Positions 24,513 through 55,640 of a stretch of 64,000 nt of DNA are shown here, in pieces (within the stretch, counting starts at the first letter, position 1; every line of letters begins with the position of its first letter). The stretch is from Ascidiaceihabitans donghaensis (GTDB lineage Bacteria > Pseudomonadota > Alphaproteobacteria > Rhodobacterales > Rhodobacteraceae). The notes below the pieces were generated by a model that did no database searches, was not told where the DNA came from, and was given only the letters and a program-made list of their open reading frames with translations. Location of the stretch: the NCBI RefSeq assembly GCF_900302465.1, contig NZ_OMOR01000001.1:1178001-1242000 (forward strand), written 5' to 3'. Position numbers and translations under genes: made by a program.

Positions 24513-24580
24513 GGCAATATCTTGCCCAATCAGCATGCAATTGTGTGAAATCAGCGGGTTATTGTGGTAACTGCCGCCAA

Positions 24581-24602
24581 TTAAACCACAATATATGGTT
24601 AA
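24581..24602 (+). promoter_or_regulatory. AT-rich palindrome with a CtrA-like half site
   Basis: TTAAACCA at 24581 is mirrored by TGGTTAA ending at 24602, and ATGGTTAA (24595-24602) is the complement of the TTAACCAT motif found in many CtrA targets. It lies about 115 bases before the OmpA-domain gene in a 204-bp gap. The TTAA boxes are 14 apart, not the classical 7, so this is tentative. Confidence 0.3.
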
Positions 24603-24716
24603 AGTGACTTCACACGTCAGTCGTTTTTTCATATCGTGATCCGTATCGTCGAAAGCCAATGACCAACTGGGACAGATGCGAGGCTTTTGTGGGGGAATAA
24701 TAAAAGGAACAGGGCT

Positions 24717-25304
24717 GTGGGATATTCGATTTCCAAAGCAGTGCGCACGTGTCTAGCCGCTACAGCAACAATTGCTGTTGGCCTGACGGCTGTTGTCGAC
24801 AGCGCGTCTGCTCAAGGCATTTTTGAACGCAACAATGCCAAAACGAACGAACGTTATGTGCCAACCATCTGGGTTGATCCCGATGGATGCGAACATTGGG
24901 TTATGGACGACGGCTACGAAGGCTACATGTCACCACACACAAACCGTCAGGGTATTCCGGTCTGCCGCCGGGGCAACGTGTGTGGCGTTATGAACTCTGA
25001 CCAGTTCTTCAAAACAAACAGCGCACGCATCTCTGCGGATGGCAAAGCGCGTTTGGCCCAGTTCTTCCAGTCTGCCGGTGCAGTCAGCTACATTATCGTA
25101 GGTCACACAGACAGCCGCGCCTCTGACCAATACAACATGCGCTTATCCTTTAACCGCGCCTCTGCTGTGGCCGGTGTGGCGCAAAGCGCTGGTGCACGTA
25201 TCGCAGACGTGCGTGGCTACGGCGAACGTTTGCCTGCCGCGTCCAACAAGACGGCTGGTGGCATGGCGAAGAACCGCCGCGTCGAAATCATTTGTATCCG
25301 CTAA
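24717..25304 (+). CDS. Exported OmpA-domain protein with an N-terminal two-cysteine module
   Basis: 195 residues from a GTG with AAAAGGAAC upstream; longer starts would spoil the signal peptide (about 1-30, ending S-A-S-A). Residues 52-83 form a short module W-V-D-P-D-G-C-E-H-W ... G-I-P-V-C with two cysteines. The OmpA/MotB C-terminal domain follows (F-F-K-T-N-S-A, V-G-H-T-D-S-R, Y-N-M-R-L-S-F-N-R-A, K-N-R-R-V-E-I), which binds peptidoglycan. The protein should sit in the periplasm holding the cell wall. The next gene repeats the same module as a lipoprotein, so both likely act together at the envelope. Confidence 0.85.
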   Translation: MGYSISKAVRTCLAATATIAVGLTAVVDSASAQGIFERNNAKTNERYVPTIWVDPDGCEHWVMDDGYEGYMSPHTNRQGIPVCRRGNVCGVMNSDQFFKTNSARISADGKARLAQFFQSAGAVSYIIVGHTDSRASDQYNMRLSFNRASAVAGVAQSAGARIADVRGYGERLPAASNKTAGGMAKNRRVEIICIR

Positions 25305-25316
25305 GGGAGAGCTGAC

Positions 25317-25631
25317 ATGACATTTCTTAAAACAGCTCTGGTGCTGGGGTGCTGCGGCCTGATCTCCGCGTGTGGCGAAGGCGGCGGTGGTAAAGTAAAT
25401 ACCAACAAAACCATCGATTACGGCTTTAAAAAGAAAGACCTGAGCCAGCTTGTGGCTGGTGTTTGGGTTGATCCGAACGGCTGTGACCACTGGATTATCG
25501 ACGATGGCATCGAAGGCTATCTGTCCCAGCGTCTTGACCAATTTGGCAAGCCTGTATGTTCCGGCATTGCGCCGCCTAACACGGCAACCGGCCCCTACAA
25601 AGGCAACCAAACGATCAACGATCCGCTCTAA
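25317..25631 (+). CDS. Small lipoprotein sharing the two-cysteine module
   Basis: 104 residues. The signal peptide ends in the lipobox L-I-S-A-C, so it is a lipoprotein. A glycine-rich linker (G-E-G-G-G-G) leads to residues 50-81, W-V-D-P-N-G-C-D-H-W ... G-K-P-V-C. This is the same 32-residue module as in the upstream OmpA-domain protein, with both cysteines, the D-D-G and the E-G-Y in register. There is no other domain. It starts 12 bp after the upstream stop and is closed by a strong terminator, making a dedicated two-gene operon. The function is unknown. Confidence 0.85.
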   Translation: MTFLKTALVLGCCGLISACGEGGGGKVNTNKTIDYGFKKKDLSQLVAGVWVDPNGCDHWIIDDGIEGYLSQRLDQFGKPVCSGIAPPNTATGPYKGNQTINDPL

Positions 25632-25652
25632 GCGTGCCGATATCCAAAAAAT

Positions 25653-25692
25653 CGGGCTGGGGTGTTGTACACTCCGGCCCGTTTTGCGTTTT
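25653..25692 (+). terminator. Rho-independent terminator of the OmpA/lipoprotein operon
   Basis: A 12-bp stem (CGGGCTGGGGTG with CACTCCGGCCCG, two wobble pairs) and loop TTGTA, followed by TTTTGCGTTTT. It separates the pair from phoH. Confidence 0.88.
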
Positions 25693-50518: not shown

Positions 50519-50610
50519 TATGACACCATAGTGATAGCTTTCCCCGTGTTCTTTGGTTAGAATCGGGCGCAATAATGGTTCGAAAAACGAACCGCAACGA
50601 GAGCAGGCAT

Positions 50611-51306
50611 ATGGAAAATGAGGCGCTGGCCCTTGCGCAGGAGATTGATTTCTCCATGTGGGCCCTATTCGCACGTGCGACGTTCACTGTAAAACTTGTG
50701 ATGATCATGCTGATCGTGGCCTCGTTCTGGGCCTGGTCCATAATCGTGCAAAAGTTGATCCAGTACCGCAAGGCGCGGTCCGAGGCGCAGGCCTTTGATG
50801 AACGCTTTTGGTCGGGGGAGCCTTTGGACGGGCTTTTTGATCAGATCGGTGCAACACCTGATGGCCAATCCGAAAAGATTTTTGCATCCGGAATGATGGA
50901 ATGGCGCCGGTCGCACCGTGATGATGGTGGTTTGATTGCGGGTGCCACAGCCCGCATCGACCGGTCTATGGATGTGGCGATCAACAAAGAGGCGGAGGAC
51001 CTGCAAAAGGGTTTGACGGTTCTGGCGACGGTTGGATCGTCTGCGCCGTTCATTGGTTTGTTTGGTACAGTCATCGGCATCATGAATGCCTTCATCGAAA
51101 TTGCAGAGCAGCAAAACACGAACCTGGCTGTCGTGGCCCCAGGCATCGCCGAGGCCCTTTTGGCCACGGGTCTGGGGTTGCTGGCTGCCATCCCGGCTGT
51201 GATCTTTTACAACAAGCTAAGCGCGGACAGTGATCGCATTGTTGCCAGCTATGAGGCGTTTTCAGACGAATTCGCCACCATCCTCAGCCGCCAGCTGGAC
51301 AGCTAG
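50611..51306 (+). CDS. tolQ: Tol-Pal system protein TolQ
   Basis: 231 residues, MotA/TolQ/ExbB family, with three hydrophobic segments (about 25-45, 134-155, 170-190). The segment G-S-S-A-P-F-I-G-L-F-G-T-V-I-G-I-M and the G-I-A-E-A-L-L-A-T-G-L-G-L region are typical. Proton-channel part of the Tol motor in the inner membrane. The ATG at 50611 is used; a longer start lies in the intergenic region. Confidence 0.94.
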   Translation: MENEALALAQEIDFSMWALFARATFTVKLVMIMLIVASFWAWSIIVQKLIQYRKARSEAQAFDERFWSGEPLDGLFDQIGATPDGQSEKIFASGMMEWRRSHRDDGGLIAGATARIDRSMDVAINKEAEDLQKGLTVLATVGSSAPFIGLFGTVIGIMNAFIEIAEQQNTNLAVVAPGIAEALLATGLGLLAAIPAVIFYNKLSADSDRIVASYEAFSDEFATILSRQLDS

Positions 51307-51308
51307 TC

Positions 51309-51785
51309 ATGGGCGCAGGGGTTGTTCAAAAAGAGGGCGGGGGGCGACGCAGGCGGCGCGGGGCAGGGCGTACCCGCCCGATGGCCGAGATCAACGTAAC
51401 GCCGTTTGTCGACGTGATGCTGGTGTTGCTGATTATTTTCATGGTCGCGGCCCCCTTGTTGACTGTGGGGGTGCCAGTTGAACTGCCCAAAACCGCAGCC
51501 GGTGCGTTGGATGTGGAACAAGAAGAACCGCTGACAGTGACCATTACGGCCCAGGGCGAAGTGCAAATCCAGACCACCGCCACGGCGCGTGATGATCTGG
51601 TGCCAAAACTGCGTGCCATCGCGTCAGAACGCGACAGCGACAAGGTGTTTTTGCGTGCCGATGGTGCGGTGCCTTACGAACTGGTCATGCAAGTTATGGG
51701 CGCGTTGAACGCAGGCGGATTTTCAAACATCGGTTTGGTGACGGATATTGGCGGTCCGACCCTTGATGGGACAGTCGAGCAATAG
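51309..51785 (+). CDS. tolR: Tol-Pal system protein TolR
   Basis: 158 residues, ExbD/TolR family. M-A-E-I-N-V-T-P-F-V-D-V-M-L-V-L-L places the essential Asp in the single membrane helix. The N-terminus before it is rich in Gly and Arg. Forms the proton path with TolQ. The ATG follows the tolQ stop by two bases. Confidence 0.94.
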   Translation: MGAGVVQKEGGGRRRRRGAGRTRPMAEINVTPFVDVMLVLLIIFMVAAPLLTVGVPVELPKTAAGALDVEQEEPLTVTITAQGEVQIQTTATARDDLVPKLRAIASERDSDKVFLRADGAVPYELVMQVMGALNAGGFSNIGLVTDIGGPTLDGTVEQ

Positions 51786-51788
51786 CGC

Positions 51789-52916
51789 ATGGATGTGGGC
51801 CAAGTCATATCCGGGACCGGCCATGTGGCACTGATTGGATGGGTGCTGCTGGGCGGCGTCTTTCAATCAGAGCCTTTGCCGATTGAAGCGACAGAAGTGT
51901 CGGTGATTTCCGGTGCGGATTTTGCAGCGCTTATGGCGGGGCAAGACGCGCCGTCTTCCGCCACCGATGTGGCACAACCTGCGCAGCCTGACCCCGTTGA
52001 TGATGCCCCCGAGGTGCCGCAAGCATCTGATTCCGTGGCGGAAACACCGGTTCCGCAAGTGGTTGAAACACCCCCTGCAGATCAGGTTCCTGACGTCACC
52101 GAATTGGCCCCGCCCCCTGAGGCAGAGGTGGATGATGTGGCGCCTGTGCTGCCCACGCCCCCGGCAGAGACTGCCGTCTTGGTGCCTGAACAAGCCGAAG
52201 AGGCGGTTCCACTGCCATCGGACCGCGTGGCCCCGGACCCTGTTGCGCAGCCCGACCCCGAAGCGGCACCTGATCCGGTGCAACAAGATGCGGTGACTGA
52301 AAGCGATACGGGCGAAACTCCGCAAGAAACACAAGAGGCCACAGCCCCTGAAGCGGCCTCTGACCAGATTGTAACAGAAGCGGAAGAACCCGCCGCTGCA
52401 CCGAATGCGTCGCTGCGGCCGCCGTCGCGTCCGTCGCGCCCCGTTCCTGCGGTTCAGACCCCGCAGCCGGAAACACAGCCACAAACGCAAACCACGCAGG
52501 ACGACAATAGCTCTGATACGGACGCGGCCGTGCAGGCGGCGCTGGATGCGGCGTTGAACGCCACCAATGATGCGCCGGCTGCGCCAAGCGGCCCGCCAAT
52601 GTCAGCCGGTGAAAAGGATGCATTGCGTGTTGCTGTATCCAGCTGTTGGAACGTCGGGTCTTTGTCATCGGACGCCTTGCAGACCACCGTTACGGTCAGT
52701 GTTGCGATGTCCCAAGACGGCAAGCCGATAGCAAGCTCTGTTCGAATGCTGTCGTCGGAAGGTGGCACGGCGTCGGCGGCGAAACAGGCTTATGAGACCG
52801 CACGGCGCGCGATAATTCGCTGTGGTGCACGCGGTTTTCCGTTGCCTGCTGACAAATACGATCAATGGAAAGAGATTGAGATGACCTTCAATCCTGAAAG
52901 GATGCGGATCAAATGA
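51789..52916 (+). CDS. tolA: Tol-Pal system protein TolA-like
   Basis: 375 residues. One N-terminal membrane helix (about 9-25), then a long low-complexity part (about 50-265) of Pro, Ala, Glu, Asp and Val, and a C-terminal TonB/TolA domain (about 268-375: [28 protein letters not shown]). The middle is proline-rich and acidic rather than the Ala/Lys helix of E. coli TolA, so it should be extended. Links the inner-membrane motor to TolB/Pal. Confidence 0.88.
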
Positions 52917-54232
52917 TACTTCGAGTTCTCCTGGCCTGTGCCGTGATGCTGATCAGCATGAGTGTTTTGCCGTTGCGCGCAGAACCCTTGCGTATCGTCA
53001 TTGACGAAGGTGTGATTGAGCCGTTGCCTTTCGCGTCCCCCAACTTTGTCGCTGAAAATGCCGGCAGCGCCGAGATGGGCGCACAGTTGGCCCGTGTTGT
53101 GGCGGCTGATTTGCAAGGGTCGGGGTTGTTTCGTGAAATCCCGTCCAGCGCCTATATCAGCCAGGTCAGTGATTTCGGGGCGCCCGTGCAATTTGCCGAC
53201 TGGAAAGCGATCAATGCGCAAGCTTTGGTCACAGGCGCCGTCAATGTGTCCGGTAACAATCTGACAGTCAAATTTCGCCTTTACGATGTGTTTTCTGGCG
53301 GGGAACTTGGCAGCGGATTGCAGTTTCAAGGCACCACAGACGGTTGGCGGCGCATGGCCCACAAAGTGGCCGATGCCGTTTACAGCCGCATTACAGGCGA
53401 GACCGGCTATTTCGACAGTCGTGTGGTCTATGTGTCCCAAAGTGGTCCAAAGGGTGATCGCAAGAAGCGTTTGGCGATTATGGATTATGACGGCGCGAAT
53501 GTGAAATATCTGACAGACAGCCGCGCGATTGTTCTGGCGCCGCGGTTCAGCCCTACCGGTGATCGTGTGCTTTATACCTCTTATGAGACGGGTTTTCCGC
53601 GCATTTACGTGTTGGATGTGGGATCGGTTCAAAGGCGCGTTCTGGAAAGTCAGGATGGTGTCATGAGCTTTGCACCGCGCTTTGCCCCAAACGGGCAGAC
53701 CGTGGTTTACAGCCAGGCTTCGGGGTCCAACACCGATCTGTTTGCGATGAACATCAGCAACGGGTCCACAACCCGCCTGACGTCCGCGCCGTCCATTGAA
53801 ACAGCCCCCAGTTTTTCCCCCGATGGCACGAAGATCGTGTTTGAAAGCGACCGCTCAGGCAGCCCACAGCTGTATGTCATGCCCGCAAGTGGCGGTGAGG
53901 CGAAACGCATTTCCTTCGGGCAAGGCCGCTACGGCACGCCTGTGTGGTCACCGCGCGGCGATCTGGTCGCCTTTACCAAGCAATCCAAAGGACGCTTTCA
54001 CATTGGTGTGATGCGTTTGGACGGATCCGAAGAGCGGTTGCTGACAGCATCGTTTCTGGATGAGGGGCCAACCTGGTCGCCAAACGGGCGCGTGATTATG
54101 TTCCACCGTGAGACGCAAGGCGCGTCTGGCACATCGACGTTGTATTCGGTTGATATTTCGGGTCGGAACCTACGTCCTGTGCGCACGCCCGAAGGCGGAT
54201 CAGAGCCGTCTTGGTCTCCGCTGCAGAAATGA
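52913..54232 (+). CDS. tolB: Tol-Pal system beta-propeller protein TolB
   Basis: 439 residues with a signal peptide (about 1-23). The N-terminal domain is followed by WD40-like PD40 repeats: [33 protein letters not shown] and T-W-S-P-N-G, i.e. a six-bladed propeller in the periplasm. Its ATG overlaps the tolA stop. Partner of Pal. Confidence 0.95.
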
Positions 54233-54295
54233 TATGGGCCTTGCCCGAAACGTGTTAAGAGACATTAATAATTCAGTCCAAAAGAGGCAGAGCAG

Positions 54296-54814
54296 ATGAA
54301 TACCAAAGTTAAAATGATACTGGTTGCAGGGGCGCTGGCGCTGTCTGCTTGTACAAACCCCGCAGGTTTGGGGGGCGGTGGTGTCACGGATGGCACAGCC
54401 GGTGCAGGGACCGGAGGGGTCATTCCGGGATCGGTGTCCGATCCCACTTCTGTTGCTTATTTCCAGCAAGCGGTCGGGGACCGTGTTTTGTTCGTGGTGG
54501 ATCAATCCACCCTGACCGATCAAGGGCGCACAATTCTGGATGGTCAGGCGCAATGGCTGATCACGAACACCGATTACACAGCTGTCATTGAAGGCCATGC
54601 CGACGAACAGGGTACAACAGCCTACAACCTAGCCTTGGGTGCACGACGCGCCGATGCGGCGCGGTCCTATTTGATTTCAAAGGGAATTTCAGGTGCTCGC
54701 CTTAAGGTAGTCTCTTATGGCAAAGAGCGTCCAGCTGAGGTATGCAGTGATGAAGCGTGCTATGCGAAGAACCGCCGCGCCGTCACTGTTTTGGCGGGTG
54801 GCCTGACAGGTTAG
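54296..54814 (+). CDS. pal: Peptidoglycan-associated lipoprotein Pal
   Basis: 172 residues. The lipobox is L-S-A-C near residue 18, followed by a Gly-rich linker, then the OmpA domain (V-I-E-G-H-A-D-E-Q-G-T, Y-N-L-A-L-G-A-R-R-A, K-N-R-R-A-V-T-V). Outer-membrane lipoprotein tethering the membrane to the wall and pulled by Tol. Needs Lnt, encoded at 28311. Confidence 0.95.
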   Translation: MNTKVKMILVAGALALSACTNPAGLGGGGVTDGTAGAGTGGVIPGSVSDPTSVAYFQQAVGDRVLFVVDQSTLTDQGRTILDGQAQWLITNTDYTAVIEGHADEQGTTAYNLALGARRADAARSYLISKGISGARLKVVSYGKERPAEVCSDEACYAKNRRAVTVLAGGLTG

Positions 54815-54821
54815 GACCGAA

Positions 54822-55640
54822 ATGCGTTACAAAATGCTTTTTGCGGTGTGCTTGATGGCGCTGCCTTTTGGGGCGGCGGCGCAAGACGAACAGACTTTGG
54901 CTGACATTCGCCAAGAACTGACCGTGCTGAATGTGGAAATTCAGAAACTAAAGCGTGAATTGAACACCACGGGCAGCGCCACAGGCGGTGTTGCCGGTGG
55001 ATCTGTGTTGCAGCGTATCGAAAGCATCGAGTTCGCCTTGCAGTCGCTGACCGGCAAAACAGAGCAACTTGAATTTCGCATCAACCGCGTTGTGACAGAC
55101 GGTACAAACCGTATTGGCGACCTGGAATTCCGTCTTGTTGAACTGGAAGGCGGCGACATCGGCGCTTTGGGTGAAACATCGACGCTTGGCGGAGAAACTG
55201 GCGCGGTACAAACCCCCAGCCAGCCAATCCCAACGCAACCTGAAACGCAATTGGCAGGCACAGAACAAGCAGACTTCGAGCGGGCGTCGGAGGCGCTCGC
55301 ATCCGGTGACTTTCGCGGCGCCGCTGACCAGTTTGCGACCTTTAATCAAACCTATCCCGGCGGACCGTTAGCGGTTCAGGCTGACTTCAAGCGCGGTGAG
55401 GCTTTGGAAGGGCTGGGCGACATTCGTGCCGCTGCCCGCGCCTATCTGGACAGTTTCAGCGCCGACCAAACCGGACCGACAGCGCCAGACGCGCTTTTCC
55501 GGTTGGGGGCGGCTTTGGGGCGTCTCAACCAAGTCGACGAAGCTTGCGTGATGTTATCGGAAGTGTCAGTCCGCTTTCCAACCGCAGATGCAGCACTGCA
55601 AGCCAATGCGCAAATGCGCAACATCGGGTGTTCCTCATAA
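54822..55640 (+). CDS. cpoB: Tol-Pal coordinator CpoB (YbgF)
   Basis: 272 residues with a signal peptide (about 1-20, ending G-A-A-A). An N-terminal coiled coil (L-T-V-L-N-V-E-I-Q-K-L-K-R-E-L, I-E-F-A-L-Q-S-L) that trimerises is followed by a C-terminal TPR region (about 150-272; R-A-S-E-A-L-A-S-G-D-F, F-K-R-G-E-A-L). Links cell-wall synthesis with Tol constriction. Its stop overlaps the tilS start (TAATG). Confidence 0.92.
   Translation: MRYKMLFAVCLMALPFGAAAQDEQTLADIRQELTVLNVEIQKLKRELNTTGSATGGVAGGSVLQRIESIEFALQSLTGKTEQLEFRINRVVTDGTNRIGDLEFRLVELEGGDIGALGETSTLGGETGAVQTPSQPIPTQPETQLAGTEQADFERASEALASGDFRGAADQFATFNQTYPGGPLAVQADFKRGEALEGLGDIRAAARAYLDSFSADQTGPTAPDALFRLGAALGRLNQVDEACVMLSEVSVRFPTADAALQANAQMRNIGCSS

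Follow-up and report, generated by a model that had tools for sequence, protein, structure and literature searches.

A pair of adjacent genes between miaB and phoH in a 64,000-nucleotide stretch of the Ascidiaceihabitans donghaensis genome (the window hereafter) encodes an exported OmpA-domain protein and a lipoprotein that have a small module in common. Our analysis showed that this pair is real and conserved, that its two modules have a common origin and that its two genes are, for the most part, present or absent jointly in the family Rhodobacteraceae. The pair and its new small module are undescribed as far as our searches reached, and from its parts we infer a function akin to that of the OmpA-family wall anchors. 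Lpp homologues are reported to be absent in most Alphaproteobacteria (PMC10470522). How these bacteria attach their outer membrane to the wall is understood in part. A conserved pair that a large family has gained or lost as one offers a simple and testable candidate for this fastening, and its module is a domain that has no description in any of the libraries searched.

Organization of the gene pair

A preliminary description of this DNA had placed an OmpA-domain gene and a lipoprotein gene 12 bp apart, and both were found where it had put them, with the 12 bp separating the OmpA-gene stop from the lipoprotein start (Table 1). The gene miaB lies upstream of the pair while phoH, ybeY, a hemolysin-family gene and lnt lie downstream. 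These names come from Ruegeria pomeroyi, where genes in this order are annotated, and from tblastn across relatives. A terminator had also been claimed after the pair, and this was supported by the hairpin with its T-run, by an RNA fold z of -3.2 at 25653-25681 and by a terminator-like site 3' of the lipoprotein gene conserved in 74 of 79 relatives, where 7.4 were expected from mononucleotide shuffles. The claim of an own promoter fared less well, as the single weak sigma-70-like match (24609-24637) is no more than chance would give (1.2 expected per 1.5-kb stretch); the promoter is presumed to lie in the gap between miaB and the OmpA gene. The pair is probably one operon with its own terminator. 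A sub-threshold Rfam match inside the OmpA gene (COG2908, 21.2 of 58.7 bits) was taken as chance.

Table 1. Coordinates of the pair and its parts (window positions, except in the last row).
Feature	Position	Strand	Remarks
Gap between miaB and OmpA gene, presumed promoter region	24513..24716	+	204 bases
OmpA-domain protein gene	24717..25304	+	195 aa, GTG start, exported
Signal peptide of OmpA protein, AxA site ending at residue 32			cleavage site read by eye
Shared module in OmpA protein, residues 52-83 (C58...C83)	24870..24965	+	
C89 of OmpA protein, first member of second cysteine pair	24981..24983	+	
OmpA domain (PF00691), residues 97-187	25005..25277	+	D132 and R147 invariant in 61 rows
C193 of OmpA protein, putative partner of C89	25293..25295	+	
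Lipoprotein gene	25317..25631	+	104 aa, ATG start, lipobox ISAC19
C19 of lipoprotein, lipid-anchor cysteine	25371..25373	+	invariant in 61-row alignment
Shared module in lipoprotein, residues 50-81 (C56...C81)	25464..25559	+	
Intrinsic terminator 3' of the pair	25653..25692	+	hairpin 25653-25681 plus T-run
Lone module lipoprotein of G399	L172 3498-3815		beside glutamine synthetase-like gene

The OmpA domain matched PF00691 with an E of 7.4e-12 (45.9 bits against a gathering score of 27.2), and its D132 and R147 are presumably the equivalents of the known diaminopimelate-binding residues. The OmpA part scored below the cut-off of every NCBIfam model among the best 25 of 38. In the 61-row alignments, which hold 61 of 89 pairs kept after a redundancy filter, A32 of the OmpA protein is invariant. 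The OmpA protein in the window has no lipobox, and 164 of the 174 distinct module frames that lacked an OmpA match carried a lipobox-like motif. The same pattern also occurred in 18 of 164 OmpA-type frames, where two are run-on lipoprotein frames, that of L158 was judged real and the remaining matches, in or before the signal peptide, were judged to be chance. Between its lipid cysteine and its module the lipoprotein has a linker of 24-43 residues (median 30; 105 loci). The residue following the lipid cysteine varies, being D in 15 of 105 loci, which leaves the membrane side of the lipoprotein unsure; the outer membrane is its most likely seat.

Sequence and fold of the shared module

The 32-residue module reported as common to both proteins was recovered as an ungapped match with 19 of 32 positions identical, and BLASTP of the OmpA protein against the lipoprotein gave 21 of 42 identities (E 7e-16 as a single comparison). 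In tblastn of the whole own genome (4.08 Mb) each protein found the other, with E values of 5e-11 and 1e-11; the first of these searches also listed OmpA domains and one match at E 0.007 with an internal stop. At an E of 0.01 a module profile recovered only the two copies of the pair in that genome. The mutual matches together with exactly two profile copies indicated a likeness of the modules far beyond chance.

Conservation was assessed over 44 module copies, mostly diverged and chosen by profile, which are a better test than sets picked by pattern because pattern searches fix several module columns and leave only those outside the patterns unbiased. In the numbering of the OmpA protein G57, C58, W61, D64, G66, E68 and C83 were invariant and G69, Y70, G79 and P81 were present in at least 90%, so that the invariant core of both module types reads G-C-x-x-W...D-x-G-x-E...C. 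A tree of 104 of the 325 module sequences separated OmpA-type and lipoprotein-type modules into two groups (2 changes against 35 in shuffles, from few columns), as one old duplication would be expected to produce.

In the AlphaFold model of the lipoprotein the module comprises three short strands (46-51, 57-62 and 67-71), with a mean pLDDT of 91 for residues 51-60, 71 for 61-70 and 91 for 71-80. The module of the OmpA protein was modelled with low confidence (block means of 44-55 for residues 51-90), and the fold is therefore claimed for the lipoprotein copy alone. No significant match to the module was found in Pfam, NCBIfam, PHROGs, PADLOC or, searched as a profile, the PDB. Weak matches taken as chance were those of two of the 61 lipoproteins to DUF6440 (best E 0.0027) and of one to DUF4223 (E 0.0016), together with phrog_11767 over residues 53-82 (E 0.055), Omp10 (E 0.07) and the best PDB profile match (E 0.11). 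A PDB fold search with the lipoprotein model gave no match at E 0.001 or below (best E 2.2), the module being small for this method.

Distribution of the pair

The preliminary description had made its case depend on co-occurrence of the two genes in relatives and on absence of the module from unrelated proteins. The first held in a family sample of 149 genomes (one per genus), where 93 had two modules and 56 had none, with an exception in the genus g151, where most of the matched genomes have a single module match; the second held, as the profile search of relatives found the module in no other kind of protein. The module profile matched 94 of the 149 genomes, with exactly two matches in 92, a second copy cut by a contig end in G132 (L171) and a single weak match in G103 (E 3e-4 and 0.002) that was counted as absence, the other 55 being matchless. 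A wider profile likewise matched 94 genomes and showed a third match in G121. Of the 93 paired genomes, the locus was read in 66 among the matches listed, whereas for the 27 others the evidence is that of the profile searches. One OmpA-type and one other module gene stood together in 61 of the 66; the remaining five were G047, G071 and G082, whose first gene had no OmpA match, G129, whose pair is split between two contig ends, and G132, whose pair is cut by a contig end.

In the order sample the wider profile matched 176 of 244 genomes, with two matches in 159, three in 1, four in 1 and one in 15. Three of the 15 single matches were weak (E >0.003) and the other 12 belonged to g151, so that 12 of the 13 g151 genomes among the matches listed had one strong module match; the thirteenth, G503, had a standard pair. 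In G399 (L172), the one of these 12 that was read, a lone module lipoprotein lies away from miaB-phoH, beside a gene that we take to resemble the DMSP lyase DddP, and the miaB-phoH site is empty. Four module matches were seen in G448 (L231), where phoH is on the strand opposite to miaB, and three in G543 (L232).

No clear module copy outside the family was found in the class and phylum samples searched. All 4 matches in the class sample (289 genomes) fell within the family, as did all 11 strong matches among 15 in the phylum sample (299 genomes), where the other 4, with three from outside the family, were weak and partial (E 0.0015 to 0.0033) and were taken as chance. The partial-module matches of the order and phylum samples at E 0.0015-0.005 (G759, G391, G865, G438, G517 and G636) were all read in this way. 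It is important to note that the number of first-look candidates scored per genome was limited (at most 26 for the class, 28 for the order, 22 for the phylum and 46-51 for the family samples), so that distant copies could be missed. Viral contigs gave no relative. Among 72,556 plasmid records, 8 matched the lipoprotein, from Thioclava, Tritonibacter and Ruegeria. Two annotated plasmid records, of Ruegeria pomeroyi DSS-3 and Thioclava sp. FTW29, have the pair between miaB and phoH, which indicates a housekeeping stretch on a secondary replicon and not plasmid cargo in those two records; a third record, from Tritonibacter, is unannotated.

Locus architecture and joint gain or loss

The suggestion that miaB and phoH are often closer together elsewhere was borne out. 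With gaps measured between match ends, miaB and phoH were no more than 303 bp apart in 34 of 42 module-free loci having both genes on one strand, and the distance in the other 8 was larger (up to 2.8 kb), in comparison to 1108-1909 bp in 44 of 45 two-module loci and 3568 bp in the last, G013. One gene of the pair alone was not seen at the miaB-phoH site in any of the loci read, the contig ends of G129 and G132 apart. The order of OmpA-type gene followed by lipoprotein gene on the same strand was found in 107 of 110 parsed loci, all of which were fetched via the lipoprotein and are partly near-duplicates, with a gap of 8-24 bp in 88 of the 107; the parse left out nine own-genome loci (L001-L008 and L010). 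The search with the lipoprotein had yielded 405 stretches with a relative, of which 80 were fetched. The three exceptions are a variant gene missed by the pattern (L026 and L064) and an interrupted gene (L054), and the first frame of the pair is short in L072.

A PhoH tree of 109 genera, 56 with the pair and 53 without, gave 20 changes of presence on the best tree and at least 6 when strongly supported branches alone were counted; this tree was built by a quick method and leaves 45 of its 106 inner branches open. Three of its tips (G015, G111 and G142) were labelled as paired by hand since their pair is on another stretch. In G111 the pair and miaB are together on one contig and phoH is on another, and the pair of G015 lies in an 8-kb stretch without miaB and phoH.

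These results bear on the explanation that the two genes descend from an old duplication, have unrelated functions and are kept together by co-transcription only. The probable operon with its own terminator and the lone module lipoprotein of one genus would suit this explanation, but the repeated joint gain or loss does not. Nor does it agree with G015, where the relocated pair was kept, or with G047 and G082, where the pair outlasted the OmpA domain, and we consider it quite unlikely.

In G505, where the site does not hold the pair, an open frame of 422 codons on the minus strand, coding for a different protein, was seen between miaB and phoH (L219 1387-2655).

Natural variants

Several genomes depart from the usual form of the pair. 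The first proteins of G047 (L155 3483-4319) and G082 (L156 3679-4522) have the module and a different N-terminal part, and a short tail replaces the OmpA domain; the stop of this first gene either immediately precedes the lipoprotein frame or is within a few bases of it. In the PhoH tree both genomes belong to the same well-supported group, which has seven members, and the loss of the OmpA domain may therefore be one event. In G071 (L291 1588-2373) the OmpA part is degenerate and gave no domain-profile match, with all four cysteines kept. Both modules persist in G047, G071 and G082, and as none of the three has a recognisable OmpA domain, the function in these genomes cannot be to tether the wall through that domain. 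The OmpA-type protein of G015 (L158) has a lipobox of its own, and in G013 (L161 3825-5867) other sequence of more than 1 kb splits the OmpA-type gene, with the downstream lipoprotein frame open. The OmpA-less or degenerate first proteins, the G015 form and the lone lipoprotein of G399 together indicate that the module, and the lipoprotein above all, is the constant part, and that wall binding is usual but dispensable. Such variants (OmpA-less module protein, lone lipoprotein and lipid-anchored OmpA form) provide a natural separation of wall binding from module function.

Cysteine pattern

Cysteines were counted after duplicates and one unparsed row were dropped. Both module cysteines were present in 337 of 338 distinct parsed frames, including 173 of the 174 frames that were not OmpA-type. 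One of the 164 distinct OmpA-type frames is an artefact, the lipoprotein frame of L161 running on from the end of the OmpA gene. In 161 of the other 163 the module cysteines are followed by a third at most 9 residues on and a fourth near the C-terminus, with none between. The two exceptions are L151, where the third cysteine is slightly further on, and L158 (G015), where the third and fourth are lost together; these two are also missing from the first proteins of G047 and G082, which have no OmpA domain, and G071 keeps both.

The preliminary description had interpreted the locus as a pair whose products might dimerise by disulfide through the module. The conserved gene pair in this interpretation was supported and the disulfide was not, as cysteine conservation fits pairs internal to each chain. 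The invariance of both module cysteines in 44 of 44 aligned modules speaks for a disulfide-linked dimer, but each module has two cysteines, and C89 and C193 are kept or lost together, so that all could be satisfied within one chain; this co-conservation of the third and fourth cysteines speaks against an inter-protein disulfide, and we regard such a dimer as highly improbable. Judged by this pattern, the OmpA protein probably has two internal disulfides (predicted C58-C83 and C89-C193) and the lipoprotein one (predicted C56-C81).

Proposed function

That one chain has the lipid anchor and the other the wall anchor, and that both have a common module, suggests a split tether. We tentatively propose, at somewhat short of an even chance, that the pair is a two-piece tether between outer membrane and peptidoglycan whose halves meet via their like modules. 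In this mechanism the OmpA protein would be exported and hold peptidoglycan through its OmpA domain, and the lipoprotein would be held by its lipid in a membrane, most likely the outer one. Each protein would present one small beta-strand module closed by its own internal disulfide, the two modules would meet each other, and the two anchors that Pal-like or Pba-like proteins have on a single chain would be divided between two. With rather more reserve we suggest that an undescribed module confined to Rhodobacteraceae serves as a like-with-like coupler, giving a split tether where Braun's lipoprotein is lacking.

We count in favour of the tether the joint presence or absence of the genes, their conserved order and strand, the OmpA domain, the invariance of D132 and R147, the two-group module tree and the persistence of the modules without an OmpA domain in G047, G082 and G071. 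The lipid-anchored OmpA form of G015 is also counted for it, as would be expected if the job were to link lipid and wall. Against it we count the lone lipoprotein in g151, the three genomes without a recognisable OmpA domain, the variable residue after the lipid cysteine and the low-confidence model of the module in the OmpA protein.

Alternatively, the modules may bind a common third thing (a glycan, a part of lipid A, a metal ion or an outer-membrane protein) rather than each other, so that the wall-side and membrane-side proteins would grip one ligand between them. The acidic and aromatic residues in the core, identical across both types, could bind such a ligand, and a module with its own ligand would fit both G399, with its lone lipoprotein, and the first proteins that have no OmpA domain. 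A common ligand or partner is nearly as good an explanation as the tether and fits the lone lipoprotein better; however, the OmpA-side module never occurred without a second copy in the family sample, contig ends apart, a partner for which an entirely independent ligand binder would have no need, and the PDB fold and profile searches found no ligand or fold match. On balance we think a common ligand possible, at slightly lower odds than the tether.

Comparison with known envelope proteins

The first protein has the same OmpA domain (PF00691) as Pba/PA1041, YiaD and YfiB and stayed below the cut-offs of the respective NCBIfam models, scoring 85 of 175 bits for YiaD, 71 of 250 for PA1041 and 64.5 of 128 for YfiB; the lipoprotein had no match to these three models. 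Pba of Pseudomonas is reported to be a tether between outer membrane and wall on one chain that binds diaminopimelate (PMC7947798). In contrast to Pba, YiaD and YfiB, the lipid anchor of the pair is on a separate, module-bearing protein.

Pal of the Tol-Pal system also combines a wall-binding OmpA domain with a lipid anchor. The first protein differs from Pal in scoring 48.6 bits for TIGR02802 (cut-off 125.35), in having no lipobox and in not adjoining tolB. A cluster resembling tolQ-tolR-tolA-tolB-pal-cpoB lies elsewhere in the window (50575-55640), with tolB-like and pal-like frames at 52913-54814 and the Pal-like lipoprotein at 54296-54814, all named by eye, so that a standard Pal seems to be encoded in this genome in addition to the pair. 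On these grounds the identification of the OmpA protein as Pal was rejected.

YfiB-YfiR-YfiN likewise joins an OmpA-domain protein to a small periplasmic partner. The pair might by analogy be a sensing pair in which the wall-bound protein captures or releases the lipoprotein under envelope stress and a further protein signals inward, and both the likeness of the OmpA domain to YfiB and YiaD and the small two-cysteine partner encoded alongside would agree with this. The partner in our pair, however, is a lipoprotein with a common module, and there is no gene for YfiR or YfiN (a diguanylate cyclase) at the locus. The scores also fall under the family cut-offs, that for YfiB by the amount given above, and the genes adjoining at the locus are miaB, phoH, ybeY, the hemolysin-family gene and lnt, with no third conserved signalling gene. 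We therefore regard a sensing pair as unlikely and rank it, along with mere co-transcription and an inter-protein disulfide, as less likely than the tether or a common ligand.

Annotated records call the two products 'OmpA family protein' and 'hypothetical protein', and a search of titles and the starts of abstracts in the open-licence literature found no paper on the pair or the module. TM1040_3759 is reported as a 'lipoprotein, putative' that is Rhodobacterales-specific (PMC2241609). It was rejected as the lipoprotein of the pair since the TM1040 megaplasmid NC_008043, the replicon inferred from the number of the tag, belongs to the plasmid collection searched and is not among the plasmid matches. 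A report on D. shibae vesicles names OmpA-domain lipoproteins (PMC7901474), and no link from these to the pair could be made.

DalA (RSP_1200) of Rhodobacter sphaeroides is an outer-membrane lipoprotein that binds the wall, with homologues reported also in cyanobacteria and actinobacteria (PMC10470522). In the samples searched, the module of our pair turned up in no genome beyond the family, and the pair differs from DalA in this reported distribution. The same report states that RSP_1033, an OmpA family protein, co-precipitated with DalA (PMC10470522), and we note RSP_1033, as a lead, as a candidate for the OmpA protein of the pair in R. sphaeroides.
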